Assembly: GCF_000003605.2 (NCBI RefSeq)
Contig: NW_003156734.1
Location: 828,383-877,444, forward strand
Reading direction: 5' to 3'
DNA: 49,062 nt
Source of the DNA: Saccoglossus kowalevskii
Taxonomy: Eukaryota > Hemichordata > Enteropneusta > Harrimaniidae
Below, in pieces: positions 25,876 to 48,582 of the stretch. The notes below the pieces were generated by a model that was given only the letters and a program-made list of their open reading frames with translations, was not told where the DNA came from and ran no database searches. Each line of letters starts with the position of its first letter. Position 1 is the first letter of the stretch. Position numbers and translations under genes: made by a program.

Positions 25876-25977
25876 CTGTATAATGCGGTCGTTCACTTTG
25901 AGCTTGCCCCTGTCTGCTGGACCGTGATCCGTAACTCTGGAAACAACAATTCCTTCAGCAGGCAAAGCACCATCAAT
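25876..25977 (-). CDS. PDZRN3: PDZRN coding exon 3: middle of PDZ1
   Basis: A 102-nt, phase 0 exon between acceptor CAATCTCAG and donor ATACAG|GTACAT encodes 34 residues: IDGALPAEGIVVSRVTDHGP followed by ADRGKLKVNDRIIQ. This is PDZ strand betaC onward to betaD, matching vertebrate EGIFVSKIVDSGPAA...GLQIHDRIIEV. The next exon should begin in phase 0 with a Val-Asn-Gly-like turn and finish helix 2 of PDZ1; I searched left of here by eye on the minus strand and did not find it. With exon 2, this shows PDZ1 cut by at least two phase 0 introns of about 0.7 kb, followed by a long intron. Confidence 0.93.
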
Positions 25978-28191
25978 CTGAGATTGAAGTAAATACAAAA
26001 TATTTTTAATATAACCATTGTGGGTATAATCAAAGGAAGCAATTCAAGCCAATACTATCAATTGTGCTATAAAATGCTGAGAGCACACTCGCTATTTCAT
26101 GAATTGTAATTTTTTAAATAAAAAGAACAAACGAGATAAAACGGTGAATTATTTGGAATTATCAGAGAATAATTGCCTATTTTGCATGCCACTAATTACG
26201 GCGTAATAAAACACGACCAGGGTACCAAGATAGGGGGAGTTGAGTTGGGAGTGAGGCATTGTGCGAGTCTCAACAATACAGGGTTTCATTCATTACTGCT
26301 TTATTCACGGTGTACAAAGACATCAAAGTGCCTACTGTAACAATGCTTTAAATGAAACCACTACCAATGAGGAAAGCTATCAGCTGGCAAATTTCTCTTC
26401 TCTCAGCCACCAAGAGTATCGGAAGCGGTCATCCCAAAGAGGTGTGACTGACAAGGGCCCTGTGTGTATCAGAACTGTTTATTGATACAATTTGTACCCC
26501 TGTAGTTTATGGAATTTCGGATAAAATATCCTCACCAATTATCTTGTTAGTAATTTCTGTTTGATTAAATTATGCGCAGTCAATGCACCGTCACATTACA
26601 TACATTAGCAAACCAATGTGCATTAACAACCCCATTTTGATTTTTTACATATTTATTTTTAATAATACACTCACCCGATTTCCGCCCATTATATTGAAAC
26701 CCAGGCTACCATTTTCTCGTTCGAGGGAGATCGACATTGTCGCTTCTTCACAAGGCTGCTACACAGGTGACAGACATACAAATAAATAATGCCATAAAGT
26801 AAGACAATAAAAATATGAGCATAAAAAAGGTTCAAGGTACATAAATTGCCCTGGGAGTTTGCAACGCCCAAGGGCAACACTGCTAAATTCACAACAAAAA
26901 TCCGACGTACGATTGTCACAGGCACCAGGTTAAATTAAATGGACAAACTGCTTCGCCACAGTAATTTGTCGACTGGGTTAAACCATGATGAATCGTTCAC
27001 AGAATATACTTTATTTTCGCTACGCATGAACGGGCGGTTATTCAAGTGCCGGTCACAGTTTAGACATTCACGGTGAAGAACGTTTTGTTTTGGTTGCATA
27101 GATGCGATCGCACGAACATCAGAGTGCTCACTCACTCACTCATTCACTCAAAAACGTTATAATTAAAATATTCACATATTTATGAATGAACAAATAAACT
27201 GTATCTTTTCCTAAGCCTTGTCAGAACTGATGGCTTTCCTACGTGACCAGCAATAATGAGTTCAGAGTCTCCAGGAAGTTGGAGTTGACCCTGGCAATGT
27301 AAAAGTAATGCAAATACCTTCCCTAGTGCATTCACCCCGCTGGGGGCCTCGAAAATATATCCCCAAGTTCTGAGCCGCCTGCGGCATTTTTTTATATAAA
27401 GAGTGAACATTTATTGTCGCCGTCATGATAGCCTACTACAATATGAAAACAAATTGATGTTGATTGTCCTGGTTTTCACGTACCTTTTCCGCGCTGGTAG
27501 CCCGTTTACTCAAATACTGGATCTGCGATTTGTATTCATTCAATTTCTTTTGGTAGCGTAGCGCTTGCATGTGAATTTCGTTTTGCAAAGTAGCCAATTG
27601 GACCACAAGCGACTTCTCGCGTTTGCTATAACGAATGGCCATTTTCTTAAGATCGTGCTCCAAACTGACCAGTTTGACCTGTTGCGAGGCGACATGTGCC
27701 TGAAGTGCCTTCAGACATTCGTGTCCGTGTACGTCACGGCACAACAGCGTTAATCCACAGCCGTTCTTACACTGACCCACAGGTCTATATTCACATGTTT
27801 GTGTCTCGTGCTGTAGCTGGTCTTTGATATTCAGCACTACTCGACAGCCCTTATTGGAGCACTGTATTGGCAGGTAATCACAGTCTTCTACATGCTGCGA
27901 TAAATTGTGTATTTTCACCATTTCGTTGCATCCACGTCGGTGATATTCACAACGTACTTCGAGTTTCTGAATTATATTCCTAAGCGGCAGAACGCTGTTC
28001 AGTTCCTTGGGTGAGAAATTCTCGCATTTCAAGGGGCAGTTCCCGTTCTGCACAACCCATGGTAGAACACACGATGAGCAAAATACATGACCACATGGCG
28101 TAGCTAGCGGATCCTCCAATACACCCAAACATACACTGCATTTCAAATTTTCTTCGATCGTTTCACAGAAACGCTCTATGTCATAACCCAT
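25876..28191 (-). CDS. PDZRN3: PDZRN3/PDZRN4-type E3 ubiquitin ligase, N-terminal part (three exons, continues left)
   Basis: Coding exons are join(28191..27484, 26758..26675, 25977..25876), all in phase 0 on the minus strand. Together they encode 298 residues: RING-HC finger, TRAF/Sina-like zinc fingers, a basic coiled-coil stretch, then the first two-thirds of a PDZ domain. This order is specific to the PDZRN3/PDZRN4 (LNX3/LNX4) family; LNX1/2 lack this block and have four PDZ domains. Family members ubiquitinate membrane-associated partners bound by the PDZ domains; vertebrate PDZRN3 acts at the neuromuscular junction (MuSK) and in Wnt-related signalling (known family biology). Vertebrate proteins have about 1,000 residues, so the rest of PDZ1, PDZ2 and the long C-terminal region are missing here and should lie left of the window or in undetected exons. 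The invertebrate gene is likely a single ortholog of both vertebrate paralogs, so the symbol is approximate. Confidence 0.93.
25978..26674 (-). other. PDZRN3: PDZRN intron 2
   Basis: A 697-nt phase 0 intron with GTGAGT donor and a TTTACTTCAATCTCAG acceptor. Apart from AT-rich runs I see no structured element in it. Confidence 0.75.
26675..26758 (-). CDS. PDZRN3: PDZRN coding exon 2: start of PDZ1 with the carboxylate-binding loop
   Basis: A small 84-nt exon, phase 0 on both sides, ends at donor AATCGG|GTGAGT. It encodes 28 residues ending GSLGFNIMGGNR, the first beta strand and the GLGF-type carboxylate-binding loop of PDZ1 (vertebrate PDZRN3 has GSLGFNIIGG). It joins directly and in frame to exon 1, where vertebrate proteins also pass from the coiled coil into PDZ1. 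The acceptor reads TAGCAG: two AGs three bases apart (a NAGNAG acceptor), so the exon may begin at 26,758 (extra Gln) or 26,755. It was recognised from the PDZ loop and the splice signals together. Confidence 0.9.
26759..27483 (-). other. PDZRN3: PDZRN intron 1
   Basis: A 725-nt intron from donor GTACGT to a NAGNAG acceptor. Open frames in it have no domain similarity and are interrupted. No other exon is needed, because exons 1 and 2 join in frame exactly where the vertebrate protein runs continuously. It contains a CACT-rich short tandem run near 27,128-27,150. Confidence 0.75.
27484..28191 (-). CDS. PDZRN3: PDZRN coding exon 1: RING finger, TRAF-type zinc fingers, coiled coil
   Basis: The exon has 236 codons and ends at the donor AAAAG|GTACGT. 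The start at 28,191 is chosen because the protein then begins MGYDIERF, matching the MGFELDRF start of vertebrate PDZRN3 as I recall it; an in-frame ATG eight codons upstream (28,215) gives an extension not expected in the family. RING ligands are C18, C21, C33, H35, C38, C41, C52 and C56, with the family signature EDPLATPCGHVFC and VLPWVVQ. TRAF/Sina-type zinc ligands follow at C81, C88, H100, C104, C111, C116, H128 and C133, and another Cys-rich segment at C141-C159. Residues about 160-230 are helical and rich in K, Q and L, with the conserved stretches KREKSLVVQLA and ALRYQKK. A whole RING-TRAF module in one large first exon followed by small exons fits this family. Confidence 0.96.
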
Positions 28192-28700
28192 GGCTACACG
28201 GGTTGCGATGAGCACACAGTTCCACGCTGGGCGTACGTTACTGGCATGAAGTACCGTACAATCGCTGACACTGCCGGCAGCTAATGCTTACGATTGTGTA
28301 CCTTTGCTATGAATGTATTCGTTCAAAATACTGGAGACTGGATACGTACGCAGTGGTGGGCGGTGCTACGCATTTGAAATAACCATACGTCAACAGTATA
28401 CAAACTTGTCATCTATTTCTCGTCGATGATTGGCTAGCACCTAATCACTTCAACAGCGTCGGCACGCTTTGTTGTTTTCATAGCCCGTTCTCTGACTGTT
28501 CATACAGGCTCCACGAGTACGACTCTTCTCAGTTGGCTCAATGGTTGGCTTCTTCAGTGTTTATTGATAACGCGTAGACACACAATATAAAACGACCACG
28601 TACATAAGTTACCACGTACATAAATTCGCTTCCAACGAAGAATGTATCAGGTCATTGCGCGTATGTCCGTGGAGCTAAAAAAAAAAGCTACAGGGTCTAT
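28192..28700 (-). promoter_or_regulatory. PDZRN3: Probable 5' UTR and promoter region of PDZRN
   Basis: This segment lies immediately upstream of the PDZRN start codon. It is clearly richer in CpG than the introns to the left and has a CCAAT box on the minus strand at 28,429-28,433, about 240 bp upstream of the ATG. No convincing TATA box is placed. The transcription start cannot be fixed from sequence alone, and a separate non-coding first exon further right is possible. Confidence 0.35.
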
Positions 28701-29445
28701 CTAGTATGGATGTTTTCCTAGCTAATGGTGACCATTTCCCATACCAATCGCATACACCTCCGACTAGTATATTACTATGTCTGAACATTGACGTTTCATA
28801 GCACAGTATACATATTTCGCAGGCAAAATATCATATCGTTGGCGCTTGGGGTATTTCGAGTTGCTAGAGAAAGTGGACCTTATCGCGTTCATGTGCGAGC
28901 ATGGTGTAAGTTGCGGTTCTCTTTTGTGAAGACTATGTAAACAACACCTATCTCATTATCCAACGCACTGCCGGGGACTCAGCGCGGCGGGCTTTCCCCA
29001 AAACAGAGCAAAACAACACTTGGCATTATTCACGCAATTCCATCAAATTGTCTGGCTCCATAATCAACATAAATAAAAGGCCATTCAAACCCACTATACG
29101 TCGCTACCTGTATCTTTGTATGGCATAATAAGCCAATTATCCTACAAATACTATTATTTGGTTATTTTCTTTTTATACGAGCCGGAAAGTTGTGTGGAGT
29201 TTCGCCGACTATATGAACATCGAAATTAGACCTTGTACGCAATTCGGGTGTAATTTACAGAAATTAATTGGTATGTCGGTATTGAATATCAAACGCCTTT
29301 GATAGGGCACCCTGCCGTTGCAGACTTCGCCAAGCGACACACAGTATGTGTTTATTTACTGGCCATATCTTCCACCGTCATCTTATTAAAACTGATTAGC
29401 ACTCTGTCGTTTGCGGTTGCCGCGTATCCAGTGGAATAAACGTGA

Positions 29446-30009
29446 ACTAATAAATACCCTGAAAAAGTAACACCCTTACATATATTTTTCCAGGACACAG
29501 CTTTTATTTTCTCACGAACTGCTGCTTATATTCCCGTTGCCACGAGCTTGCATGTAATGTCATTAGCATTCAAGCGAACTGAAGAGGATCTGAAAACGGC
29601 GAAGTACAAATACACCGGCATCAACACAAAGATAGATCATTGAAAATTTGGAGTAGCGGCACAGAGACTGGGTAATGCGAGCAAAATCACGACCCGTGTG
29701 CAGGAAATTGACTTCAACCGGACCTTTGATGATGCTGCCGAGCCCGATTCGCACTGTTCACCGGTATCAAGTGTTACAGCTGCATAAAAGGTCCGAAACT
29801 CAGTTGGGAAAAATTACGACCTAAGCAATTCATTCGTAAATGTACTACCACTAGTCGGCGTAGTTGTGTGGAGCCGTAACCTTGATGATAAGAAGGTCCA
29901 ATTCGGCGGCACATCAGTGATACGCTCTCCGAGCTCAGTAAAGCACGATATAACAATAGCAGATGGACACGGATTTTACGAGATAATTATTTATTTCGAA
30001 AATAAATAA
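29446..30009 (+). pseudogene. Decayed open reading frame, unrecognised
   Basis: One plus-strand frame stays open from 29,446 to the TAA at 30,007 except for TGA at 29,641 and TAA at 29,785: 188 codon positions with only two internal stops, in AT-rich DNA where many more are expected. The three segments have ordinary protein composition, for example KRTEEDLKTAKYKY, QEIDFNRTFDDAAEPD and VWSRNLDDKKVQFGG. A pyrimidine tract and CAG (about 29,481-29,492) precede the first part like a splice acceptor. I do not recognise a family. It could be a fossil gene or transposon fragment, or chance in a locally GC-richer stretch; the antisense strand is also fairly open. No restoration is attempted. Confidence 0.25.
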
Positions 30010-32927
30010 TATATAAATTAATATACATATTCCCCTCTCAAATATTATAATTTTACTTCAACTGGTGTGTTAATTAATTATTTAATTAAGACTGACGCAC
30101 TGATTACAGCTTGACTTTTTTCTAATCGTTTTTCGGTCCTATTTTTAATGATGAAACATAAAAAAGAAACATTTCGCGCATGTTAAATGAGTATTGTTGT
30201 ATGACAGTGAGTGTTTCGCGAAAATGTAAGTGTTTGACAAGTGTTTGACACGTATCTGCTAAGTTTTTAATTGCAACACCCATTTAAAGAACAGGAGGCT
30301 AACATGTTTAGCGAGTCCCGTTGGACGCATTGAGGTAATGCCATAAAGCCTGGAAAGGTATGCATGGACGATCAAAGCGAATGCTAAAGTAATAACGATC
30401 TGGTCAAAGTGATCACCAATTTGCCGACAAAAAGCCGATCATATTCAACATATGCAGTCCACTCAACGTACTGTTATCATATCAGCTATACAGTGGAAAG
30501 GTCGTAAATTTAAAGATTCCAAAAGCTACTATTTGAGAAGCTTGGATACCGAAGCTATTAACTACTTTTAGCGTTCATTATCATCTGCCGGGTATGATAC
30601 GACGGAGTGCTCTTGTACCGACTGCACTTGTCACGTTGTAACACCGTATACCCGTTCTACGGTCATTATCTATAACATGTACATTTTTTAATATAATAAG
30701 AAAAAAACACATTTCAATATTGCTACTTCACTTCGTGTAGGATTAGACAACTATAATTTATATCATGTATTCCGATATCATTTTCTTTTCCTACAAAAGT
30801 GTAGCCGGGGGATCCGATAAGTTTGTATCGTCTCATAGTTTTCATAAATCCCCTTAGGCGGCGGTGTCACAATGTAATGATTTAGGCGACATTGTCTCAA
30901 CCGATGCGAATATCTTGAAATTCTCACCCCATCACAAAGTATACAACAGATCAAACACTTCCTTCATAATTCATCCGTTTTTTTTAGATGTTGTTCAAAG
31001 TTGCGACTGAACTCCCAAATTACGATGTCAAGTAACTTAAATGTGTCGACGATGATACCATCCACTCGTTACCAAGACCCAGTCATGCAGGAAACGTGGT
31101 TATCTTCATACGTGCCGAAATCGGAACGCTTTGCCTTCTATCGTGAATTTTTCTGGCTCTATTGTCTGGCTTTAGACTAATTTACGACAGGAGTAATTGT
31201 TCTCACAATTAAACTTAATAACAATATTATAGTGAACATACATTGTTCATTCCATTGGGAATTATTTGTTGCAGTCATTTATTAATGAACCTTTTTACAC
31301 ATCTTGGAGTTGGGACGCGTACATCTGAAGACTAGACGTTCTGATTAATATCCCAATGGATTGAAAGCCAGTGTATGCATGTTCTGAGAACTGAAGACTC
31401 GTCGAAAGAAATGTGTTATTTGAAAAAAATAGTAAAACTGAATGTCATATGTATAACATGCGTCGAGCAGTTCAAAATCGTTTTATTAGTTGAAGTCGTT
31501 CATACTAGATATTACGTCTATCTCCACGGTGTTCCCAATGTGGAGCCACGCCCCATCCATTGATGGACATGCTCTTTTTTTCGCCGAATGGTAATATCCA
31601 GTTTATTACTCCAATAACTTATTATTCAACTTAAATGTACATGAAGGCGTGTGCTTCTGCTGTAACAGATTATGTGATATTTATATTATTGTTCAACGAC
31701 GTCTAGTAAAATAACAATGAATATTTGTGTTATTGTTTTTTCGACTGGGCCACTTTGTAATATCTATCTGATCCCTACGTTATATCATCTAATGCGCTCT
31801 GCGTTGAACCTTGAGCTACATTTTTGGAGTTCACGGTCAAAATAAAAGTCCTGGCTGTTAAAACGTAGTCTATATTCAAGTAGATGTTACCAAAGATAGA
31901 CAGCGAGTTAACTGATACTTTGTTGATCTGAGTTCCCTCCATATCATGATGACGATCTCAGCTTCAGTCACTTCCTCGATTCGAAAGGTAACCGACCTGC
32001 GCCATTTTAGATGGAGTTATACAAATGATCGATGCACATTGGCGCCTGATGTTCGAGTATTATGGATGCGTTACAGACTTTTAGTCGTGTTATTCATATA
32101 CAGTTACACGAGAATTGAGACCAAATCTGGTATAATCGTACAACCCCTCTGGGCAGAATCCTTTTTCGCATTTTCGTCTATGCGAATCGATGTAACTTAT
32201 CATTTTAACAACTACTTGATATTCATCTATGTATTTTATTTTATTGGTTCACGTGAAAATTAAACCGATCTATCCGCGTGTATCATGCAGTCTTGGGGTA
32301 ATTCAGAATACACCGGATACTGCACTGATCAGTCTACGTCGGATACTTTATCCCTACGATATCATTGCCCTATATATTGTCAAGCAAGGAAAATCAATGA
32401 ACACGATTTGGGAAACTTTCAGGTTTCACCCTGCCTTCCCTTCCCGTAAATTACGTCAGAGTAAAAACTAACGCGTATAACATGGCGCATTTCAATTACT
32501 ATGGAAATGCCTTATCTTATTCTAGGGCCATGCACTCATGGTAGCTCTCTGCTCGTTATCGTGAAAATAGTTTCAAGTTCACAAATTTAACGGTACTATA
32601 AATTAACTTTGTGACAGTTTAACCTCATTGTGGCCTCAGTACATCGTTTCTTACTCAAACTACGGATATTTTCGTAGAATGTATTCCAACGTTGTTACTG
32701 TCACGGTGCACGTAATATTAAGATATTCAGGAGATTGTTTATATTTACAGAAGTCAGGATGTCCACGAATGACTAGCTCTACATTAGCAATACAAACCCT
32801 CACATAATTACATAGAATTAACATGGATTGTACATATCAATATACTGTTTACATCATCGACTAATCGCGGCAATTGTGTCAATACGTCATTCCTTTAAAT
32901 CGCGCACTCTAGTGACGGGCGCTGTTA

Positions 32928-32935
32928 TGACGTCA
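32928..32935. promoter_or_regulatory. CRE palindrome TGACGTCA
   Basis: A full cAMP-response element in the spacer, inside a run of moderately GC-rich sequence (GGGCGCTGTTATGACGTCAA). A second one lies at 35,991-35,998 and a third, in a tandem repeat, at 925-932. Motif evidence only. Confidence 0.25.
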
Positions 32936-34188
32936 AAATGACTTAAATGGGCCGTTAGTACCTTCCACGAATGGGCGAAGACAATGCCGTTCAAATCGAC
33001 AACTGTGTTTGATTGTGTAGTATTTCGTCATCTAGAATTCAGTAGAATTTCTCAAAAACATAATCCTGATGGATGACTTCATATCAAAACGATACGTGAC
33101 TCCTTTGAACGGCTTTTGTGTCACCCATTTACGTCACGGAAGCGCTTTGTCACTGGAGGGCGTGATTTGGTGCAATATTTCAAAACTATAGCCGACATAG
33201 TTGTGTACAATTTACTTTTGTGTTAACGTGGAATCGATATATGTGAATTTCAATATCCACGTCTCAACATAAGATAAATGAATAAATTAATATTTTATGA
33301 ACTGCTTATGTCCTGATTTGCCCATGCATACCTTACCCTTTCCTGTCGATAACTGTATACATTTCACATATAGACCATGCGACCCATTTAGTTAGTACAG
33401 GTTACAGGAAATAAAAACGGCATTTTACGTTTTTACGGGAAATAAAATGAAAGTTCCATTTACAGTAAAAAATAGGTTTTTACAAATAAAGCAAATTCTA
33501 ATTACATTTTACATTTTTATAATATTTTTTGATAATTTGAGTTTAAGAATCAGAATTGGAAATAACGACATTTAGTTTGAAAAATTCTTAATGCCCTTAC
33601 AAAAAGTAATAGCTTTGTACAAATTACGGACGAATAAAATAGCTGATTGCATTTTACACCTTGCCTGTGCCTACGAATTTACATTTTTTATTTATTTGAA
33701 TTACATTATTACGAAAATAAAAACAATTGATTACAGTTTACGAAAATACACCTTGCCCGACCATCTTTAACAACTTCTGCACATAAAACTACATGGCTAT
33801 ACTGTCATTGATGAAAGCAATAATAAAGGTTTGACAATGAATATCTGAAAGATGGCAGTAAACTCAAATTACTTCAAAAAATCCCATTGGAAATGAAGCA
33901 TTATCAAGTAGAAACGTTTAATTAATATTCAGAAAGTACTACAAAAACGACCGATGATCAATGCAAATAGACAACATTACTGAATCTTCTACGTTCATCA
34001 ACTGAATGCACTGTACCCGGATCAGGGTATTACAATATCGCGACGCCGATCTTTATTTCACCCAAATTCGATATTATTTTCAGAAATTTGACTGGTGGAA
34101 ATGATATTTACTAATATATTTGATTATCCTGTGGCATCACCTACGAACTTCTCATTATTCTGAAAACTTGAGGATTGGGATTTAGTAA

Positions 34189-34533
34189 GTTTTTTTGTGC
34201 CAGGCGACAGTTCCGGACATTGAACGTCACTGTTGTCTCTCCTGACCTTTTTTGTATGTGCAAATTGCAAGTAGCGCATTTGCCACAGAAGTTATTTCCT
34301 GTTTGGGACTACATGACAGGGATTTGTGGCCATCTCCCTATCAAATGGCAATTTTAATGCGCTATCCTGGCGTCAACCAGGCTCCGTCAAACACAAGCAC
34401 CTGCCAGTGGATTGGCCTTCCCATTGAGTCTGTGGCACACTCACCCAGGGTAGGGGTCGACCTATTGACCGATTTGAACTTGGGTATACCGATCATGAGT
34501 CTGATGCGACAACCACTATGCTACCAGTGTAAT
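34189..34533 (-). mobile_element. tRNA-derived SINE, full length, with target-site duplication
   Basis: Read on the minus strand, the element begins near 34,533 with a tRNA-like head. It has an A box TAGCATAGTGG (34,523-34,513), an anticodon-arm-like GACTCATGATC, and a B box GTTCAAATC (34,479-34,471), the internal RNA polymerase III promoter. A body of about 260 bp follows, then a short A-run (seen as TTTTTTT at 34,190-34,196). The 8-bp direct repeat TTTAGTAA flanks both ends exactly (34,181-34,188 and 34,534-34,541), the target-site duplication expected from LINE-mediated retroposition. The CAT anticodon-like triplet suggests a tRNA-Met-like origin, but the head is diverged. The family is not recognised. 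A chance open frame of 114 codons crosses it on the other strand. Confidence 0.7.
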
Positions 34534-36907
34534 TTTAGTAAAATATCACTAGAATTCAGTTCAATAAAATTGGTCTCACTTATATTTCTAATGTAGGAAA
34601 ACTAACTTATTATTGCATTTGTAATCTCAACTGAGACGCGAAATCATGAATGTTGGTCACTGTCACACACACTATGCCTCATCGTAGTAAACAACATATA
34701 TATCAACATAGTTTGGTTTTGCTCTCAGTTTTCATTGTTCAACACTCACTAACTAATGGGTTGTTGCTACATATTTTGACATCGAATCAAATAATCGGCG
34801 CAACGGTACACAAGATGAAACCACCTTTTTACAAAACGGAAATGAACATTCACTGAATGTCCGACTTGCGTTATACATACACAACTACTTTGAAACTAAA
34901 GTGCTCAATAAAAGATGTATAAACATTGACTAGGGTGACCCTTTTAGTCGATTCTTCCGACCTGAACACTGTGGGGTGAAATACACCGAACACAAATGTC
35001 AAAACTACTGCTTCAATGCAATAACTTGCATCGACCTTGCATTGATAGTCTACTGAACCGAATAATTTAGAAATCATCGTGTATTGTCGGCTAGAAAGCC
35101 TGAGTGTATGTGTTTTGTTGGAGTACATGTATAGAACAACTTTGCTGACATGCCAACTATGTTGTTTTGTCGCGTCAATTACGAAGAAATGGCTGCAAGT
35201 CCAGTAAATTATTAAAATAAAACCGCTCGGTTGATTATTCGCTGAATTTTGCTGTGAAGATTATTTCTGACAGCGTCACATCGGTTCCATGGATTCATGT
35301 ATACGCTCAACTTCATAACAAGAATAAAAATACGACGTGTTTCATTCATTGTAATGCCGTTTCAATTCCTCTTTATATATCAGTGTAAACGTGGAACGGT
35401 ACAACGGTCTCCCTGCTGCGCAGCGCGCCCACACCCCAGTAGCACTTAGTCATTACATACATTGAGTTAAAACAGAATCTATTCTTAACTTTATATTGCA
35501 TATAACTTACAACACACTAGAAAACACGAATAAAACACCGTGATATAACAGTGATCTGTTCAATCGTTAGTTATCAGCAACAATGTGATAAACTATAAAC
35601 ATTATTAAATTTAAATTGACTGAATTTGGACAGAAGTGTGATAGCTACACCTAGGTGCCAGAGAAACATGTTGATATTGAATCGGAAAGTACCACATCGT
35701 TTCTAAATTGCCTCGAGTTATGAAACATTTGAATATAATACACTTTTTATGTCATGCCATTTTCTCCCATCGTCGTTACTATCATTGTGAAAGTGAGGCT
35801 GCAGCTTGCATGCGAGTCTCCCTTCCCCCCCCCCAATCATACACCACATTTACGCATGTGTAGTAGTACACTGTATCAGACAACTAGTCTGAGACACATC
35901 CGAAATGGTTCTTCTGCGCACAGAGTACCTTTGTCGCGCCACGAATAATTTGTATTGCATCAAGTTACTGACATTGTAATTTCGCCTCTATGACGTCATC
36001 ACGTTTGTTTTTGCAAAGGTATATTGGTGTGGCTACTGATCTCGATTTAGATCAAATGCCGGCCAGATGGGAACAAGTCATTGTATTCCGGGTTTTAAAA
36101 CAAAGCGGGGCAATACGAAGACAAATTCCCAGCAGTCCAGTTAAAATTATTCCATATAGTGTGGTGCTATTATATCCGGACTGATGCACTGTCACCGCCC
36201 GTGGTTCTTATTTAACCGAATTGTCTAGTGCTCTTTCGATCTCCACTCAAATCTTATGTAATACTAGTATTTTTTCCTGCCTTTTATTTTAAATTTATTT
36301 ATATATTTTTTGCAAGAATAACCTTTTGGGGCAGATATCAACATGACTAAGTTGCGCAATCCAAATGTCAACGAACGAAATATGTTTTTGCTGCAGTGTG
36401 ACCCCGACAATTGAATTAACGGTGTTTGATGTTTGCCGAACTTTCAAGGATACCAGTGTGTTTTATTCTACATCGATGTAACATCCGGGGATTCTATATA
36501 AAGAACGACCCTCCGTGAAGAATACAATAGTAATTACCATTAGCTCATTTTTAGATATTCAGTGTATTGTGTTAATCATGAATTCAAAATGCACCCCTTA
36601 TAACCAGACTATGCCCAGTGGGGTTATCATTAGCTAGTTCAGCCCGTGATTGGTCGAAATCATGTCAGATGATCAGTTATGTTTCAAGTACGGATTTGAA
36701 GTGACCGTATCATTTACAACAAAAACCTTTCAACGGAGTTGTTTCCGCGGTATTCACATTAACCAAAGTTGACCCTGTTAATTTCTGACATTTCCTCCCG
36801 TTATTTTAAAAGATGCAAATTACGTATTACATGTATTTTTCTATAATTGGAATATATTTGGATATAATTACATAAATTGTCACAAATCGCAGAAATTTAT
36901 TAATATT

Positions 36908-36982: not shown

Positions 36983-39095
36983 ATTCAATTTTTTTCATCG
37001 ATAATTAACGCGCCATTCAATAAATTGTGCTGTGAACAACGAACATGTCAATTCTTACCAAAGGCGATATAATTAGTCAATTGCTTATCATGTATATCAT
37101 GTGTTATCGATATATTGAAGTACATTACAGATTTGATGTGAATTTATCATAGGCGTCTATATTTCAGTGATATGATAACGGTAGTAGCTTTGTGTACTTC
37201 CCGTTTCCACCACCGTGACGGCAATACGGATATAGCTGACCCGTGAATCGACACATGCTTGACACGTCTTTCGGGCTTGAATAATAATTTATTTGTTTGT
37301 TTTTTGTTTGTTTTAGAGGGTTGCGTCTGTCTGTCTATGTATTCACTATGTGGCCACATTGGTTACGAGGCTCAGTACCATTTCCCTATAACTACGGATA
37401 CCCCCAGACACTAACTTCACTTCAAAGAGGTATTCTAGCCTAGTCCTAGCGTACACGCGTGTTTTTGACAGGTCGATACTAGTACATTGACACTCCGCGG
37501 TTTTTAGTAAATCACTTCAAAAAAATCAGATCACGCTCACCTAAAAAATAACAACCCATTTCCCATATTCTTGTTGCTAAGACAACCTGTTTTCAACATG
37601 ATGGCAGAAATCAGGCAAAGAAATGTCGCCAACACTAAATACAATTTGTAATTGTTAGTTACTATATTTTTTCTAAGATCTAATTTGCTCTTTTTGCCAA
37701 ATCTTGTCAGGTGTAATACCTATTTTTCACCGGTGACTATCATGGAAACACGTAATTGCCGTCAGAAGCAATTACAGCTTCGTAATAATAACAGAGCATG
37801 TTAGTTTACTAGAGATTTTGTCATCGGATTTGTTCATTTCTTCTTATCGCATCACGTCATACTGAACATTCGCGGCTATTGTATATTTCCGTGTCACTGC
37901 ACTAACCAAATAAAAACGGAGCACTGCGCAGAATACAACAGAACGGATTATATAATAGATATACGAAGCATCTGTCAAAATAAAATCGTGTCAATGGTCA
38001 CCATAGTGTCGGTAACCAGGGAAACCCGCATTTGCTTTCCCCATCGTTCCCCAATCAGCTTCACTGGGGGAAGTGCTTGTTTAAACTCATGGAGAATCAT
38101 GCTCCGAAAAATGAAAAACGAAACATTTTCTGTGCAGCGAAATCGTTGTCAATTTGCGTTCTCAAATATTTTTAAAATAATTATAATTCAATGCGAGTAC
38201 ATGTATTTGAGCGGCGATGATGTCATTTGGGCAGGCAATACACCGTATAGAGGAATAACTGTCACCACGCTTGAGTAAGTCATAGTTTATAACAATTATA
38301 AATCATTTTACTATCATATTTCTCTCATCAACAACAGTGATCATTTTTATGATTTGTAATATTGTATCAGTTAAATGAAATATGCATATGGTTCTTTCAT
38401 ATTGGTAATGAATTGTGTGTTATGGACTGTCTTGGTTGTTTTTTTTTCAGATTTGATAAATGTTCGCTCAGGGAAGCTGGGACTGCGATCAATATATCCA
38501 CATTAACTGAATGAACATATATCATAATAACGCCCGCCCGAGTTTAGAATTGATGGGAGATATACTGTTTATAGTGACATGCATTATGCATCTATACGCC
38601 CGTAAATAACATCGTTGACAAATTACGCACTCTGTCAAATTTGCCGGTATCGTGTCAGAGGTCATGTGAGTGTTTTTGAGCGTAATTGAATAATTTTGTT
38701 TTGGCATTGAATTTGGATGAAGAAAAACAATAGGGGGTGATTTATGATGTACAAATTAATTCTTTGGCTGCAACATAAACAATAATCTCTATGAATATAT
38801 TTAAATAGTATGTTAATAACCTGTCCGTATGGGTAAATTTGCGACGCATGCGCATTACAGTTTTCAGTATTTCGAACGAATGCAGCTCGCTTGCTGCCAA
38901 ACCAAGGGTGTTATTTTATGAATAATCATAAACCTAATGGGTTTTTTTCAAGATGCACTATGATAATATTTAAACATGCTCAAAAATAATCAGTTATCCG
39001 CATTATCTCTTTAATAGATGAAATCAAGCGCAGAATGTAAAACTCGTCTCGGAGTGGTGTATGGTGGTATAAGAACAGATATTCATACCGAAAAC

Positions 39096-39121
39096 CACAG
39101 TCCCTTTATAGAAGGACTGTG
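39096..39121. repeat. 8-bp perfect hairpin
   Basis: CACAGTCC and GGACTGTG pair perfectly around a 10-base loop. A GGTTCGAACC palindrome follows at 39,133-39,142. The pair superficially recalls a tRNA, but no cloverleaf can be drawn. Confidence 0.35.
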
Positions 39122-40187
39122 CGAAAACATAAGGTTCGAACCAAGCGTGTCACATTAAAAAAAAATCTACGTGACCCATTACGTTACTACTTGTATATAG
39201 AAGCCGAAGACAATATTTGCTAGTACAGTGTTGATTTCACTACGGCCCCTTTGGATTCGAGCAGGCACAGCGGGCGAGTTTTAATACGACGTGAACAATT
39301 GCTATACGAAGCATTAGCATATCCCTTTACTACTAGTATATGGATTCGTAAACTAGTTCCGAAAACTATATTTTAAACACTATACGTCAGGAATATTGAT
39401 TTGCAACAGAAATATAGCTACCACTTTAAAATTGTAATTACTATCAGGCTATAATAATATTAACCATTTACTTCTAAGGCTGATTTAATTACAGTCTTAT
39501 TCCATATTTCGCCCCCTGGACAGAAGGTGCTTTGTAAGTAGCGGTCAGACGGCAAACGACAAACGTTTTCATCGAGCAAACGGCTAAAGCCTTTCTCGCC
39601 AGGGATTCAGGGGCTGTATCAGACCGCAATGATATACAAAGCATTGATCCGTGTTTCGTCGTGAGATCAATAAAAAAAAGTATTGTAACTTGGCGGCAGT
39701 CGTGATAAAGGTTTTCAGCACAAAAGAAACAGAATACATCGCTGCAGTAGACTGCCTGTACTGAATAGCCCGAGTGTAAGCGGTATATCATACCGTCAAC
39801 GCCGGCAACATAACAGTGGACGACGTGAAAAGAGAGAATGGGGACTGCAGAGCAAGTTAACAAATTGGTGAAGGTGAGCGGAAAGAACCCCCATGGCTAT
39901 ACACCTAGCTTTGGCAACTGTTATCAATACGAGATAGCAGACCGCTTTTCATTTTCAGATCAAAGAAAAAAAACTAGCACCCGCAGCTAGCTGTGAACAT
40001 TATTATTAGGAAGCATCCACTCATGGTGTTCTTGGGGGGGGGGGTGATCCCGTCACGGCGTTGTGTTACTGTCTGTTTTTCAATAAATACCTACGGACGT
40101 ACTGCATTGATGCCTGTGTCATACAGTAAACTACACTTTCACAGAGAGCTGACTAAAACAGACTTTACATGTACCGGAAAACACTAT

Positions 40188-40206
40188 TAATATATATATA
40201 TATATT
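40188..40206. repeat. (AT)n microsatellite
   Basis: A run of alternating A and T, ATATATATATAT, in the intergenic spacer. Confidence 0.8.
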
Positions 40207-43200
40207 TAAATTGTTTTAAAAGATACATGGGCCCGAATATGATACATATAAGGGCTCCATCGTTTATGTCTGGAGATCATGCACTAAATACAATCCCTGG
40301 AAGACGAAAACAACTATACTGGGTGCATGGGTACAGGGTAACTGTTAACACATTTTTTACACAGATAGCGCCGTTTGATACGCAGTTAGATGGGAATTTT
40401 GCAGTGTGAACACAGCATAGACGTAGTTTAGAAATAGAAATATATATGTGTAACAGTGTACGCCCGAGGACAGTATTTTGGATGCTCCCTATCTATGACA
40501 AGCAAATGAAGCCTAGTGGCACAAAATCAATAAAGCCGTACTGTATATAGTATAATTATAATTGTTGTAAGCAGTCTGAATTCATATTTGGGGGAAAAAA
40601 CATGAATTTTCGCATTGCAGTCAGCGACAAAATAACACATTTCGGTATACAAGCGTTGTCCCCATGTACAACATATAAACTAACGCGATTTAATCATTTT
40701 ATTAATTTCAAATGTTACAACTTTGCAGAAATGGGAATCAGACAACGCTAAATATTCGTCCAATCTAACAGACACGTGTGGCAAGTCGAGTTTGAGAACT
40801 GAAGTATCGCCGAAAGCTTATGATTGCTTCAAAGCCGTGACAATTTGTAGCTCGAGATAACACGATTTTTCGGCAACCTTTGAGTCTTACAATCCTAATA
40901 AATTTGCTAGTCCATAGTTGTGGAACAAGCCACTCTGCGTCATTTTCTATAAACACAATGCTATGAATGTTAGTTTAGTCCAGTAATACTAAGCCCCGGA
41001 TATTCAAAGCGATAATGATTGTTGGGGCGGGGTCTTCATTCCCGTAGTTGCCTCATTTATATCTCTCATGATTCTCTAAGGCTGTTAACTGAAATGTGCT
41101 TCGAATTTCAGGACGACGGGTTTCAACTCAAAGTAGTACTTGTCTTGTATCTATTCAAATTTGGATATGATCTAAAAAAATCAATTGAAAGTTAAAAATA
41201 AATCTCAGGAGGGCGCTGTTGGCGATTGGCTTCACACCGCCCCAATTACCAAGTATAGCACGACTTTATAATGTGAACTTCTTTCAGTTTTCTTCTATAA
41301 ACACGCGTATTACAGTAACGTTGGATAGTCTTTATAGAAATTGTCTCGCCAGACGGCCGGCGCTGATTGCGATGATTCAACCAACCCGGAGCCTCGTCTA
41401 CGCAACTCATGGCCTCGAGACATGTACTGGAGGACCTTCCAATTTTATGTAATTCTACCAGGCTTACTTGGATTACTAATTACATATTTGTCTCAAAGTT
41501 CTGACCACTGGCATGAAATGAAATAGTATTTAACTGCCGGGGTTAATAAGATTACATACAACTATGCACAGAAAACAACGGCCATCGGCATGAACATCAG
41601 CAAAGCAATGATATTGTTGGTATTATATCTTCTAACTTCACGGTAATGGAATAAATAAAACTATATTTTCGATAGATGTGTGTTTACAGAATATGTAAGT
41701 AAATACACACCAAAGTATAATAATAATAATAATCATAAAATTCGTATAACCCCACGATCAAATCTTACTATTGGTCTTAGCTTGAAAAACGGTTTTTGTG
41801 ACCGTTACATGGAGCTACGAAATTTACATATTCGTGATGACATCATCGTGACACGTGTCTGAAAGTGATCATTTGTGATGAATTCAATTTCTTTTTGTTT
41901 TTGTTTTTCCTAAACTTCAAACCTACCAAGATTTTGCTCAGTGGCTATCGACTCAGTAATCAGTGGATTCCAGACTATCGTCATTGGGGCACTCAAATAT
42001 CAGCCTCAAGTGAAATGCGCATTTATAGCGAAGCGTGCTTTCAACGTGATAACATTGTGATTGGTGGGCCTGATTATTGATTGACCAATCAAAACCGCGA
42101 TACTAAGTAATGATAATTGTGTTCAACATTGACGTTCGGTTATTTTGAATGTTGGCATACTAAATGTATCGCTCATCGAGTAGAACTCTAATGCGACAAG
42201 TATTTAAAGGACGGCAGTCGTCGTGCCGCGTTCTTTTCGATATGGGACTCATAGCGACGTATACAACGCGTGTAAAATACATTGTTTATTTACATGAAAT
42301 TCGAACACGCGCTGCGCGACGACCACCGCGCCTTAAACAGTCGTAAGTGTAAGACAGTTCATATAATGCCGATGCTAGGATTACTTTACGTGTGTGCAAT
42401 ATACACATGTCAACCAACTATAATACACCAATATTACGTCCTCCAGTACAGGCCTATTTAACAAAAAAAATCTACGCGCATTAAAATTCCATGTGCAGCT
42501 GTCAGACATGGCCACGACGTTATTTCAGGAGTACTTTCGCATTTAAAAGCGTTAACTACAGTGAAATAGACATGTAAGATAATTGTAGGTCATACAAGGT
42601 TTCACGAGGAAGATAGATAAGATGGCCAGGGCAGTGTATTCTCATTAATTTCCATGTACGAAGTAATTAGGTCGATCCGCGATCAAATCACGTCTATATC
42701 CGTAGTGAAATGAACACTGCTGATGACATGTATATTGCTTGGGATAATGTTATAGTGTACAACTGAAGTCCCCGCTCGTATTATGCATATAGGTGTTACC
42801 AAAGCATTCACCTTTAATGTGTTTTACGATTGCTGGCAAATCTCAGCTAAATCATCTCTCTTTTGAGACGCATTGTATGTGCCATTCTGTCTAAATAACT
42901 CCTCATCACCGGTAACAGTGAATAACAAGTAAAATTGGGTCGGAGTAAAACGTTAATTATCACCCATGTTCTGGGTCATTGTCCGTGCAATGGGAACTTG
43001 TAATAATACCGCGTGGTGTGGACACAGTCATAAGAAAGTTCAGTCCGTATGGAAGTTGCTATTCTATAGGTTACGATGTAGAATGGTGACAAGTACGTGA
43101 TTTTGGTTCATTACAAAAATAAAAAGATTTATACCATCTTTGTAACAGTTCATATGAACTTAAAGCAAGACCTGCTTTTAATGGTCTATATGTAGATGAC

Positions 43201-43229
43201 CACATTAATCAGTGTGTGTCGACTTTTTA

Positions 43230-43357
43230 CAGTGGCGGATCCAGAGGGGAATGCATCTGGATTACGCATAGCTTCTCTGCGATTTACGCTCCGTAAATTT
43301 TAAAGTAAGCTTGGAAACCCCCCCCCCCCCCAATACATTTTGCTGGATCCGCCACTG
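43230..43357. mobile_element. hAT-type MITE with terminal inverted repeats
   Basis: Perfect 15-bp terminal inverted repeats CAGTGGCGGATCCAG (43,230-43,244) and CTGGATCCGCCACTG (43,343-43,357) enclose a 128-bp non-coding element. The flanks ACTTTTTA (43,222-43,229) and ACGTTTTA (43,358-43,365) match at seven of eight bases, an aged 8-bp target-site duplication typical of hAT transposition. An internal run of 14 C lies at 43,318-43,331. Its CAGTGGCGGATCCAG ends are widespread in marine invertebrates and fish, as I recall. It has no transposase and must have been mobilised in trans. Confidence 0.8.
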
Positions 43358-44279
43358 ACGTTTTAACACCTTGGCGATTTCCAAAAATGTAAAGCAACAA
43401 TGTCCACTCATAATTGTGTGACATTTACGCATTAAAGTGGACACAAACTAGATTTGTACGCGAGTTTTGTGACAATCTCACTTCCCCTGGCACCACGCAA
43501 TTTTGGACCAATTAATTTTTGCCTAGGTACGCACTATGGCTAATTTGTTGTCTGTTTTCATAATACAACATTGTTGCGACTGTCCAAAGAAAGTTGTAAA
43601 TTATTCATACGAATCTTTTTTGCAGTCCATAGGAACATTGATAGAGACTTTCCCAGGGAAATTACAAGTTACTCTACGAATCTCTCTTGCGGCCGCTGTC
43701 AAGAGGCATTTCTCACACATTACATGTCAAGGAAGCTAAGAATAAACTTCTATGTGCTGTTATTATTGGTAGCATGGAATATAAATAGAAAATATTAAAC
43801 AAACAAAAAATTATAATAAGGGATATTTAAAATTAGCCTCATAAACAAGAAGCCGATCAACTAATATAGCTGTGCAATGTGATACTCAGTATTAAAGTTT
43901 TTAATTATTACTAACAAAAACAATCTTATTAACGCAAAATGATTTAATATGACCACCTCTGATTAGCTTGTAATGTACCTGTGCAGACATTAGTTTGCAA
44001 ATTTAGGCAAATAACACGCAGGGATTTCTAATCGCATCTGTCGATTGCCCGAGAGCATCAATAGAGGCTAGAATTTCCATAATTAGTCATTCAATGCTTG
44101 GTCATAGGAGATTTGACGGACTAGATTATGATATTAATCACCATACAATAATTGGCTTACAAAGAAATTGTCAGTATAGGCACTATCTCTTCGGCTAACT
44201 GATGGCTTGGTTCACACTGAATCATAACAGAGCAAAGTTCTCGCCACAATTGACACCTGCCAGAGTATGCATTGTGCAA

Positions 44280-46960
44280 TAAAACTTATTTATGGCACAA
44301 ATAATTGATATGAAATATCATTAAAACAAAACAATTTTTCCCCCCAATTGCAGCATAAATAGGTTTTTGTGATGATATTTTGTTATTTGTCAATGTCATT
44401 TAAACATCAAAATTAAACTCTGCAAAGGTGTGTAAATGTGCAATCATTGTTTTATAAACATATCTAAGAAACAGTAAAAGACAATGGCATTAGAGTCATC
44501 AACCAACAAATTTGATCAAAACTTTAAGATTTTGCCTATGCAAATCACCTACTAAATATATGCATAGATATGGCACTAAAACTAAGCAAGTCTGCACATT
44601 ACCTCAAAGTACCCATGAACTAAATTTGAACAAAATTCACTCACTTTCAATTGAGATTTTACTCAATGAAATGTGTACTGAAATTGGTCAAAATAAGCTC
44701 AGAAGTTTTAAGATTTTGCTTACATCAATAGACAAATGGATAGACAGAAAACTCATTACCTCTCTTGTGTGCTTCACCAATACTATAAAATCATTTATTT
44801 TTGCTGGCATTTAATTTCACTACTTTGATCCTTTTCACTGGGTTCACGAATTTGGCAGAAAATAACTAGTTCTGTTATTTTACATGTTCACATAGATTTA
44901 CCTGAACATTTTATGAGGAAAGCTTTTTTTTCTTGCACACTGATAGGAAAGACACTTAATTTATGTAGATTTGAAGTATTGACATATCCACATAATTAAA
45001 GAGGAGAACTGCCATAGAAACTGGCAAGTTCCAAACTTTGGCACATTATGCAGGGGAACAAACTTTGGAAAGTTAAACTCTGGTTTGGTCAAAACTTAAT
45101 ACTGCCTTACCCTTCTGAAATAGTCTCAGATTAGTACAAGATATGTTAACATTGACTACTGTACATCAGCCTTCATAAGCACAGAAACCCAGTTCTGTCC
45201 TTGCTATTTGTATATTTCTATTGTACAAAAGTACAGGTAGGGCATTTTCAGATAATGAAAATAACATTCACCAACACAACACATACAAAAGTACAATCAA
45301 TTACTGGGAAGCTGGCATACTTTCTAAATTATAGCTTACACAATTTTACAGACAAGATATTGGAGTACAAGTGTCAATCATGTCCAAAGGAACAGGTGAT
45401 TTTATAAGAAATCTGTACATCGAGTTGTAAAAATGAATATAACAGACGTACATAATAGAAGAGACATGTGCCTAATAAATACCATTGTTACCAACAGAAT
45501 ACATAGGCATCTACATGTGATTGACAGGCACATATCACAAATAAAAAAAAAAATGGCAATTTAACAAAAAACATGGTTACTATAGTGAGCATCTTTCCTG
45601 TATTGTGTATTATGACATACAGACGATGAATGTACACAGGGTAATGGGGTCAACGTAATTGACAACTCAATGAACACAAATACATTGATAACAGGTTAGG
45701 ACTGTGAATGTAATAATTGAATAGTCACATTGTTAGTCAACTTGTGATTTATTGCATACTGTATAAAAAAAATACTACTACATAACAATGGCACACTTCA
45801 CAATAGTAAATGTAATTTGTATTTTTTTGTGCATTTGTTATTATGAACGATTAATAAATTGCAGTTGTTTTGATTGACACTGGAGTGAACTCAATTGACA
45901 ATAGATGTCAAATTTCATATTAAATACGAGTGCCAAATTTGTGTCCACCTAAAACTGCATTAAAACTGACACATTAGCGTTTTAAAGAATGACTAATTGG
46001 CAGCCTTGATTGTGACTGAGGCAGTACAGCAAAGTTGGCCAAGGAAGGGAGGAGTGTGACAACTAACCAGAACAGCTTGGGGACAATGAAATGAAATTTT
46101 CACCATCAAACTATATGAAAATGCAAAAAAAAATGACTGGAATTGACATATACAGCAAAATTTGGAATCACAAGTTTTTATAAGAGTCCGTCTGTTCTGA
46201 TCATTGAGCACAACTCGCTTATTGATTTACCGGTAAAAAAAAGAAAGAATTATCATATCTACATGAAATAAGTGAAAAGTTGAAGGCATATACACACGCA
46301 TGAAATCCACTGTAACTCTCTAAATTCAATGAAGAAATATCTACACCGAGAGACAGCGCACTCAACTATCAATACATTTTTTTTTCATAAAGAAAGCAAA
46401 TAAAAACCCACTAATGATATATTTCCAGCTATAAAAACACTAGTTTTTAAAAAAAGGATTACAAACAAAATTGGTCTGGTTGAAAAAAAATTAAATTTCC
46501 TTTCACTATGGTAAAAATAATACAATTGTTAAAATTGACAAAACTGAGCAAAAAAGTTGAAAATTGCATGTGGTAACTCACCAAAAGGGGCTTAATATTT
46601 ACAAAGTACACAAACACTTTGGCCTTTCATTTTGGTGAAGACATAATTTCAAGTACTCTTAATGTTAAAAATATTAAAAAATTTATAATTAATTTTCATT
46701 CTGAGGTTTAAAAAAAAATTAGATGGCAGTTTGTAATTGGAGTCAATGGGGACATGGGAAATGCACATTGTAACAAGTGCATTGTCTCTCTTATTGACTC
46801 AACAAAAGCAGGTTTTACTGCCAACATTTCAATTTGTCAATCAATACAATGACTCAGTAATTAGTATTTGATGTAATTACATTATCTGATTACCTAAATA
46901 ACATGATTTCATCTTAATTTGTGCCCATAATTACCATGTTTTTAAGACTTAAAAATTTGG
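44280..46960 (-). other. CNTN: Probable contactin 3' UTR and downstream flank
   Basis: Downstream of the contactin stop, the sequence stays very AT-rich and almost free of CpG to about 44,280, where CpG rises again. I infer that this marks the end of the transcribed unit, giving a 3' UTR of up to about 2.7 kb. Several minus-strand AATAAA hexamers occur (seen as TTTATT, for example near 45,747 and 44,794), so the cleavage site cannot be chosen. A foldback repeat lies at about 44,781-44,900. Confidence 0.35.
44781..44900. mobile_element. Foldback-type repeat, family 3, one end diverged
   Basis: It starts TACTATAAAATCATTTATTT and continues with TTTCACTGGGTTCACGAATT, TGGCAGAAAATAACTAG and TTATTTTACATGTTCACATA. 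The same order with small changes occurs at 48,890-49,050, so the two are copies of one element. The right end is not resolved. Confidence 0.5.
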
Positions 46961-47064
46961 TTAGCAGAGATTTCTTATAGTGTGGAGAAGTAAAGAGAAA
47001 GCAAGAAGAGACAATGACACACAATGCATGCTGGGGGCTGCTCCAATTTGTCGCTGAGACCCAT
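46961..47064 (-). CDS. CNTN: Contactin terminal exon: GPI-anchor attachment signal and stop
   Basis: The acceptor is a pyrimidine-rich CTTTCACAG at 47,073-47,065. The single base carried over from the phase 1 donor selects one of three frames, and only that frame gives a GPI signal: YGSQRQIGAAPSMH, then hydrophobic CVSLSLLAFSLLLHTI, then RNLC and stop TAA. A small-residue omega site (GAA or nearby), a short spacer and a hydrophobic tail without a cytoplasmic domain are the expected architecture. That the splice phase and the GPI frame agree is strong internal support that this is the true last exon. The exon opens with an ATG in another frame, which would mislead single-frame prediction. Confidence 0.85.
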
Positions 47065-48582
47065 CTGTGAAAGAAGAAAAATACAGATATTAAAAACATG
47101 GAACTTGACACAATGAAATGAAATACGACTTTGAATGGTATCATATAGTGTTATAACCGATTTTGTGACTTCAAAGATGAACAGGGCTGCATACCTCCTT
47201 CCCAGTATAGTTTTTTAAAAATTTCTGCCCATGTTGAGATTTGTATTTTTTCTTATGAAATTAATAAATATTAAACTCGTTAGATTCTATTTTCTAACTA
47301 ATAGTCTAATATAAATTATTTCTGGGTACTGGACCTCCCCAATCTTGAACTGGCACCATATAAGGGTGCAGGTAAACAGTCTGCAAAACCTTTTAATTCT
47401 CTGACTGTATTGCAAAGGTTCAGTGATGGTTCAAATGTACTTACACAATGGAATTTTGATAGGATCACTAGTGACGCCATCACCACCTTCACTGTAACCT
47501 TGTACCTGTAGCAAGTACGTTGCCCCCGGTTGCAGTCCACTTATGGTGCCTTTAATGGTGTCCGCACCTTTGATGTCAACCTTGGTGGCGTCGCGTTCAA
47601 AACGACCATCTAAGTAATATAGAATCTGTAAATGAAATGAAACACAGCATGTGAATCAGAGCGCCATCATGTAAGTGACTTGAACAGACACATGTATGGC
47701 AGCAAATCGAGCAGCAGCACAAAGAAAGTCTTCCATTTTGGGGATGCCATCCCTCAAAAGACACTAAATAACCAAACTTAAAATGTGATTTATCATTCCA
47801 TGCGTGATCTTGTGTAATGCATAAAAAAACATCTGCTGCAAAAACATAACGACTTGATTTTAAACTCAAATTTCCTTTTTTCATATCATAGTTCAATGTC
47901 AAAATGCGAGGAGAGAATATGGTGTGAGTGCCCTTACTTTAAAACTGACCATCAACAAACACATTATTAAGCATAGAAATACGCCGAAAAAACCTTTAGC
48001 ATTTTTCAAATTCCATGGATGCTTCAACGAACGATGAATACGTGTCCTGATTTTTAGTTTGATTTCATACATATTGCAGGATCTCGCAGTGTAAGAAAAT
48101 TGATATATAATGCTGGAGAGCTGCCATATAAGCATGATGGTAGGGGACAGTAGATAATACCAATAAAGTAAAATAGAACCAAGTTCACATTTTCAGACAG
48201 TCATTTTTCAAAGACAAATATCTGTCTTTATCTTCACTATCATGTTAATGTCAACGAACAAACGATTCATTAAAAAACAATTACAGAAGCAAAGTCATAG
48301 CAGAGTGGCAATTTTTTGTGAAACGGCGCCCTCAACTGATGTATCGAGCAGCATCCACAATAAAACGATTAAATTCCAATTTAGAGGGAAGTAAGTTTTT
48401 TTGAGCACACCAAACTCTGATTAGAATACATTTTAGCTGTAAATAACAGAATAATGCAAATACCTTGTATCCTTCAAGAGGTTCTTCCTCATCATTGTAG
48501 GAAGTAATCTTGTCCCATGTGACTAAGATAGATGACCATGAACTGACTGCAGCTTTCACGTTCTCAGGAGCATCTTGGGGCG
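46961..48582 (-). CDS. CNTN: Contactin, C-terminal part (last three exons, gene enters from the right)
   Basis: Exons are join(48582..48464, 47625..47445, 47064..46961), ending at TAA 46,963-46,961. They encode the last fibronectin III domain and a GPI-anchor signal. The reading frame is continuous: phase 1 entry, phase 0 intron inside the FN3 domain, phase 1 intron after it. The FN3 domain ends EGGDGVTSDPIKIPL, which closely matches the vertebrate contactin fourth FN3 (GGDGTSSEQIRIP, from memory), and the middle LEGYK matches VTGYK. Contactins are neuronal Ig-superfamily adhesion molecules (six Ig plus four FN3 domains) held on the outer membrane by GPI; they act in axon guidance, septate-like junctions and synapse formation (family knowledge). 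The Ig and earlier FN3 exons must lie right of the window. An alternative is another GPI-anchored or L1-like FN3 protein, but the absence of a cytoplasmic tail and the terminal motif favour contactin. Confidence 0.87.
47065..47444 (-). other. CNTN: Contactin intron (before the GPI exon)
   Basis: A 380-nt phase 1 intron with GTAAGT donor and a CTTTCACAG acceptor. Nothing else is evident in it. Confidence 0.75.
47445..47625 (-). CDS. CNTN: Contactin exon: second half of the last FN3 domain
   Basis: A 181-nt exon between acceptor TCATTTACAG and donor CATTGT|GTAAGT, entered in phase 0 and left in phase 1. It encodes ILYYLDGRFERDATKVDIKG followed by ADTIKGTISGLQPGATYLLQ and VQGYSEGGDGVTSDPIKIPL. 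It has the FN3 LxPxxxY tyrosine-corner motif (LQPGATY) and the contactin-like GGDG...I.IP end. Joined to the previous exon it gives EGYK-ILYYLDG, a normal FN3 C to C' passage. Confidence 0.9.
47626..48463 (-). other. CNTN: Contactin intron (inside the last FN3 domain)
   Basis: An 838-nt phase 0 intron. Minus-strand open frames within it lack domain similarity and are treated as chance. Confidence 0.75.
48464..48582 (-). CDS. CNTN: Contactin exon: first half of the last FN3 domain
   Basis: A 119-nt exon between acceptor GGTTGTTTTCAG and donor ATACAAG|GTATTT. It begins with the last two bases of a codon (phase 1 entry, the usual FN3 boundary phase) and ends in phase 0. It encodes 39 full codons, PQDAPENVKAAVSSWSSILV then TWDKITSYNDEEEPLEGYK, with the conserved FN3 Pro-rich start, the core Trp of strand B (VTWDK) and the GYK of strand C. 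Confidence 0.88.

Follow-up and report, generated by a model that had tools for sequence, protein, structure and literature searches.

A contactin gene followed by a PDZRN3/4 gene on one strand of an acorn worm scaffold: a probable ancestral linkage shared with mammals

The contactin and PDZRN3/4 genes of the acorn worm

The stretch of DNA analyzed here in full (the window, 49 kb) covers positions 828383 to 877444 of scaffold C4610 in a hemichordate assembly of 572,110,611 bp and 4830 contigs. Its minus strand carries the 3' end of a contactin gene and, farther along, the 5' end of a gene of the PDZRN3/4 (LNX3/4) type, an arrangement that had been proposed from the letters of this DNA and that spliced exons, Pfam and PDB searches, and additional Ig1-3 exons upstream of the window now bear out. 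Between the stop codon of contactin and the ATG of PDZRN, we counted 18,769 bp, in agreement with the spacing of 18.8 kb given in the original prediction; both genes are read from the minus strand, with contactin first. N runs flank the window on either side (C4610:819672-828382 and 877445-900716), while the count of N inside it is 0, so both gene ends share one ungapped piece and their adjacency is independent of scaffolding.

The contactin end begins with an exon at 48464-48582 (minus strand), which encodes the first half of the last FN3 domain, matches Pfam fn3, and is bounded in frame by an AG acceptor and a GT donor. The second half of the domain lies in an exon at 47445-47625 (minus strand), and the fn3 match crosses the splice junction between the two (2.9e-12 for the spliced domain). 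The final exon (46961-47064, minus strand; stop codon at 46961-46963) was read directly from the translation and encodes a GPI-anchor-type tail, in which small residues are followed by a hydrophobic stretch and then directly by the stop, a cytoplasmic tail being absent. This predicted GPI-type end sets the gene apart from L1/neurofascin and from the LAR phosphatases. We call the domain the last FN3 because it precedes the tail and not because of its score; when aligned with contactin-2, it scores higher on the third FN3 (26.8 bits) than on the fourth (12.1 bits). A contactin assignment from the FN3 domain alone proved insufficient, since LAR-type phosphatases and contactins score about equally when this domain is searched by itself against the PDB.

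The assignment was settled by the Ig exons that lie upstream. Five exons at C4610:901877-905752 (minus strand), spliced by eye, encode contactin Ig1-3; in the PDB, the best 10 of 178 sequences were all contactins (1.2e-66 to 2.6e-53), and neurofascin came next (6e-47). These exons are separated from the FN3 exons by an N run of 23,272 bp and share their scaffold and strand. We join the two sets because scaffold, strand, and order agree and because the assembly holds one close contactin copy: a search of the assembly with Ig1-3 gave 24 matches, headed by its own five exon pieces, with the next at E = 4.6e-8. The contactin domains seen are Ig1-3 and one FN3, and the rest of the six Ig and four FN3 domains would fall in or near the N run. 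On the strength of the Ig1-3 exons, the gene whose 3' end lies in the window is identified as a contactin.

The second gene, at 25876-28191 of the window, is represented by three minus-strand exons that yield a single open frame when spliced by script, with AG/GT at the internal splice sites. Exon 1 (27484-28191; start codon at 28191) encodes a RING finger followed by a TRAF/Sina-like zinc-finger region, exon 2 (26675-26755) the start of PDZ1, and exon 3 (25876-25977) the middle of PDZ1; spliced translation and PDB searches place all three, and Pfam additionally places the first two. Both the RING (2.4e-11) and the PDZ (1.1e-9, for a submitted piece carrying one extra residue) exceed their Pfam cutoffs, and the zinc fingers fall slightly under theirs (Sina, 31.8 versus 32 bits; TRAF, 24.7 versus 27 bits). 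The closest solved structure for the whole of exon 1 is TRAF5 (2.4e-15, residues 7-136), and the top PDB match of the PDZ piece is KIAA1095 (2.1e-9), which we take to be PDZRN3. Exon 1 is 50% identical to a provisional human PDZRN3 sequence over query residues 1-232. With this provisional human sequence as the query, the rest of PDZ1, parts of PDZ2, and one more stretch were found on the same strand and in order as far as C4610:768586, which gives the gene a span of at least 87,988 bp (~88 kb) from its ATG. Two PDZ domains were found; two such domains together with a C-terminal LNX3 homology domain would separate the gene from LNX1/2, which carry four. Together, these comparisons support the predicted PDZRN3/4 (LNX3/4) identity of the gene.

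The distance from exon 3 to the next recognized exon (C4610:780037, outside the window) is ~74 kb. Tandem arrays occur within this distance, at positions 1950-2252 (units of 57/158 bp) and 4275-4748 (units of 40/80 bp) of the window. For the C-terminal LNX3 homology (LNX3H) region, the provisional human sequence found no match in the scaffold sequence analyzed, which includes an N run of 10,273 bp at C4610:757295-767567, and this region may sit inside that run. Beyond PDZRN and on the opposite (plus) strand, we observed an enoyl-CoA hydratase/isomerase frame (Pfam, 1e-36; C4610:755501-756184, L021:6302-6985) and, farther along on the minus strand, two carboxylesterase-family frames (L021:1021-1359 and L022:8651-8995; 4.1e-17 and 7.6e-20, respectively); C4610:709600-736035 consists of N.

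A search of the assembly with PDZRN exon 1 gave 12 matches, one at 100% and then three weaker RING/zinc-finger loci at 31 to 34% identity (E = 1.4e-33 to 3.7e-24). Two of these, L025 (C560:167125-167742) and L026 (C2972:71073-71672), read without a stop and encode RING and zinc fingers similar to PDB entries for TRAF6, LNX, and further RING proteins; the third, L027 (C258:140116-140631), has one internal stop. These loci may represent additional LNX- or PDZRN-like genes, or TRAF-like ones. By these searches, the assembly appears to hold one close copy each of contactin and PDZRN.

Two further observations concern the assembly at large. On C3771, at ~249-344 kb, there is a very long one-strand array of FN3 domains, which accounts for more than 100 of the 150 scored matches and may represent a titin-like gene. 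The mitochondrial-type contig C4830 (L035) carries COX1 (8.1e-142, at 13523-14863) adjoined by ND1 (3e-106) and COX2 (1.8e-58), with COX1 on the strand opposite to the other two. In an alignment with mouse COX1, 8 of the 9 columns with ATA hold Ile, Val, or Leu in mouse, and 17 of the 19 with ATG hold Met. The single COX1 column with AAA has Lys, and the eight AAA codons of the ND1 frame were judged by eye, from the conservation of their sites, to be Lys; two AGA codons in the ND1 frame were likewise judged to be Ser, and AGG is absent from the COX1, COX2, and ND1 frames. According to the available passages of published work, the mitochondrion of Saccoglossus kowalevskii uses AUA for Ile, AAA for Lys, and AGA for Ser and is missing AGG (PMC3121625; concurring on ATA and AAA, PMC2697986), and an inversion of COX1 is one of its two gene-order changes; in the same source, AAA is Asn in echinoderms and AUA is Met in cephalochordates, and Asymmetron is described as having nad5, not cox1, inverted (PMC7055842). 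The codon usage read from C4830, together with its inverted COX1, is a Saccoglossus-type signature and points to a Saccoglossus-like enteropneust as the host. An echinoderm or an amphioxus was rejected as the host on the reading of AAA as Lys and ATA as Ile and, for Asymmetron, on the gene that is inverted.

The interval and its CpG pattern

The original prediction recognized no gene between the two, and our scans gave the same result: all 54 intergenic frames of at least 60 aa were scanned, and none matched a Pfam family at its cutoff, a length limit under which shorter exons would escape; an Rfam scan of the window gave no match. Below the cutoff, 15 Pfam family matches were found among these frames, with E values of 0.012 to 0.19. 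AATAAA/ATTAAA sites lie 3' of the contactin stop at 45753, 44815, and 44799.

Segmentation of the window by CpG content gave a best segment at 26501-43700 (17 kb), with an observed/expected ratio of 1.10 versus 0.48 elsewhere in the window. The log-likelihood gain of this segment was 100, compared with a maximum of 12.4 in 60 permutations of 100-bp blocks, which were scanned at a coarser step than the real data. The CpG-normal segment comprises intergenic DNA, the PDZRN promoter, and the first PDZRN exons; adjoining it at 43700-46960 (minus strand) is a CpG-depleted zone that probably contains the contactin 3' UTR and transcript end. Within the latter, a stretch of ~1 kb downstream of the contactin stop (44250-45249) is nearly free of CpG, with counts of 0, 1, and 1 in overlapping steps of 500 bp, below those of its neighbors. 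In 2-kb windows over 196 kb of the scaffold (C4610:729400-925913), the ratio was ~0.2-0.8 within the PDZRN and contactin units and 0.94-1.24 in the eight windows at C4610:855400-871400; beyond both genes, it was ~0.7-1.3. Lower windows beyond the genes, at 745400 (0.63), 753400 (0.33), 755400 (0.64), 923400 (0.28), and 925400 (0.48), coincide with repeats or another gene.

A gene-body methylation pattern of this sort is known from invertebrates. The mosaic is naturally read as the trace of germline gene-body methylation, with an interval and a PDZRN promoter that would be unmethylated, and it does not look like the pattern of a vertebrate genome. It seems to chart the transcription units of this genome from its sequence alone. 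From the CpG statistics, we infer that contactin and PDZRN are transcribed as separate units: the former transcript would end ~3.3 kb past the contactin stop codon, and PDZRN would have its own promoter ~15.5 kb farther on. This bears on the idea that transcription of contactin runs on into PDZRN, in a read-through or operon-like tandem that would keep the order of the genes. The shared strand and the leading position of contactin are what such a tandem calls for, but a long shared transcript should extend the CpG depletion, which instead stops at ~43.7 kb on the contactin side and resumes only at ~26.5 kb, inside PDZRN; moreover, PDZRN exon 1 has its own ATG and RING. With the depletion broken across the interval, read-through from contactin to PDZRN is disfavored, and we consider it extremely improbable.

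Mammalian counterparts and the age of the pair

Two human pairs, CNTN3-PDZRN3 and CNTN1-PDZRN4 (the latter presumably at 12q12), had been put forward as counterparts, and we take both to have the same order and strand as the genes in the acorn worm window. The mammalian papers, in the passages available to us, agree that the partners lie close together. In human, a SNP is annotated between PDZRN3 and CNTN3, with LINC02005 named in or near the interval (PMC7466756); a locus at 3p13-3p12.3 is given as PDZRN3-CNTN3 (PMC8304276); both genes fall within the same inverted region (PMC5736717); and a breakpoint is placed between LNX3 and CNTN3 (PMC7765395). On dog CFA27, a PDZRN4 SNP is at 12.26 Mb and CNTN1 at 12.62-13.04 Mb, with LOC111092763 named in or near the interval (PMC11581321), and on pig SSC5, a SNP inside PDZRN4 is 720 kb from CNTN1 (PMC10298016). 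A mouse chromosome 6 QTL list includes both Cntn3 and Pdzrn3 (PMC11898013), and a chicken paper names CNTN1 and PDZRN3, in the part seen, without linkage (PMC8230197). These sources give proximity rather than direct adjacency, and their available passages do not state gene strand. As far as they go, both mammalian neighborhoods resemble that of the acorn worm in holding a contactin close to a PDZRN3/4-type gene. They differ in distance, which is a few hundred kilobases in dog and pig versus 18.8 kb in the acorn worm; in the non-coding or uncharacterized loci named in or near the interval; and in number, with two copies after genome duplication in mammals versus one here.

The contactin-PDZRN pair is an ancient microsyntenic pair in that the neighbors are common to distant phyla, namely, a hemichordate and, through papers on proximity, mammals. 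The host is not a vertebrate, so the pair is older than the vertebrate genome duplications (2R), as the original prediction had it; its extension of the pairing to the bilaterian ancestor outruns the evidence, which reaches the ambulacrarian-chordate ancestor. According to some analyses, deuterostomes may not be a natural group, in which case the latter ancestor would be the bilaterian one. With a hemichordate host and the mammalian pairs, the simplest account is one adjacency in the ambulacrarian-chordate ancestor: a single contactin-PDZRN neighborhood would predate the split of the two lineages, and the vertebrate genome duplications would have copied it to give CNTN3-PDZRN3 and CNTN1-PDZRN4. 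We infer that the hemichordate and mammalian pairs probably descend from this one ancestral two-gene linkage, a comparison that draws on one non-vertebrate genome and mammals and on the presumed order and strand in human.

That only one non-vertebrate genome was compared leaves some room for coincidence, with the adjacency arising once in the hemichordate and separately in the vertebrate line before 2R. The order is the same as that presumed, along with strand, for human, and if chromosome content is conserved and order scrambled, the rough chance that one given pair is adjacent is 0.1-0.5%, the upper value being ~2 in an assumed ~400 genes per chromosome; independent origin is, in our estimate, very improbable. 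YAF2/RYBP presumably neighbors both vertebrate contactin-PDZRN pairs. In the present assembly, which is not chromosomal, YAF2/RYBP is on another contig (C2514), and this speaks neither for nor against a wider block.

Persistence of the linkage and its significance

If the linkage is ancestral, the most likely route to its persistence would be that such linkages are lost slowly within a stable chromosome block, breaks perhaps being made rarer still by regulatory elements of one gene that may lie in the long introns of the other. In its purely passive form, in which rearrangement within deuterostome chromosomes is slow and the pair is not under selection, this is the default for a lone two-gene adjacency. 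Set against it is the report, in the passages available, of two hemichordate genomes without apparent conservation of microsynteny (PMC11175523); gene order is not generally frozen in the phylum, and it is accordingly somewhat unexpected that the linkage has survived in the acorn worm and in both mammalian copies. We put purely passive survival at about an even chance.

Alternatively, the two genes may constitute a regulatory block, with enhancers in the partner's introns or in the interval, so that a break is selected against. Genomic regulatory blocks likewise hold long-intron neighbors in a conserved arrangement, but they are defined by non-coding conservation, a gene desert, and contacts, whereas contactin-PDZRN is known here from gene arrangement. 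The stretch of ~74 kb that separates PDZRN exon 3 from the next recognized exon fits such a block, and this long intron could serve as its desert. The linkage is, by the available reports, kept in both vertebrate copies, and tissue-specific control is plausible for each partner, contactin-1 being described as a protein of neuronal membranes (PMC10298016) and Pdzrn3 as a target of Wnt5a-Ror (PMC11164867) in the passages available. In the passages available from a 49-genome survey, constraint by genomic regulatory blocks is suggested for blocks of vertebrate age, and most blocks of bilaterian age are put in a regime of high gene density (PMC8851819), which argues against this explanation. The interval argues against it too: with the 20 to 30 thousand genes assumed for a genome of 572 Mb, 18.8 kb is ordinary (about average). 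A regulatory block is a possible but doubtful explanation. Its strongest form, a putative functional unit dating back at least to the deuterostome ancestor, in which elements in the CpG-normal 17-kb interval or the long PDZRN intron would control both genes and would have kept the pair together through two duplications, we regard as unlikely.

Ancient metazoan microsyntenic blocks and pairs have reportedly been surveyed by Irimia et al. in 2012. Such blocks, as described in the passages available from the 49-genome survey (PMC8851819), consist, like contactin-PDZRN, of old neighbors kept across phyla, but they comprise at least three genes, whereas the present case has two. The deuterostome pharyngeal cluster (PMC11175523) is also a local gene order shared by hemichordates and chordates, with different genes. 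Neither CNTN, contactin, nor PDZRN occurs in the main text of either paper. Within a literature search judged by titles, the starts of abstracts, and some passages, with supplements outside its scope, CNTN-PDZRN was nowhere described as conserved synteny. What was known, to that extent, is the mammalian proximity, from association and cytogenetic reports; within the literature searched, the hemichordate pair and the reading as conserved synteny appear to be new.

Contactin-PDZRN offers a testable case of gene pairs that resist genome shuffling. It gives a non-vertebrate footing to two mammalian neighborhoods, in one of which association signals fall between PDZRN3 and CNTN3, according to the passages available (PMC7466756 and PMC8304276); if regulation is shared, these signals may act on the neighboring gene. 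Were the putative functional unit real, it would place an adhesion protein of axons and a ubiquitin ligase linked to Wnt under shared control.
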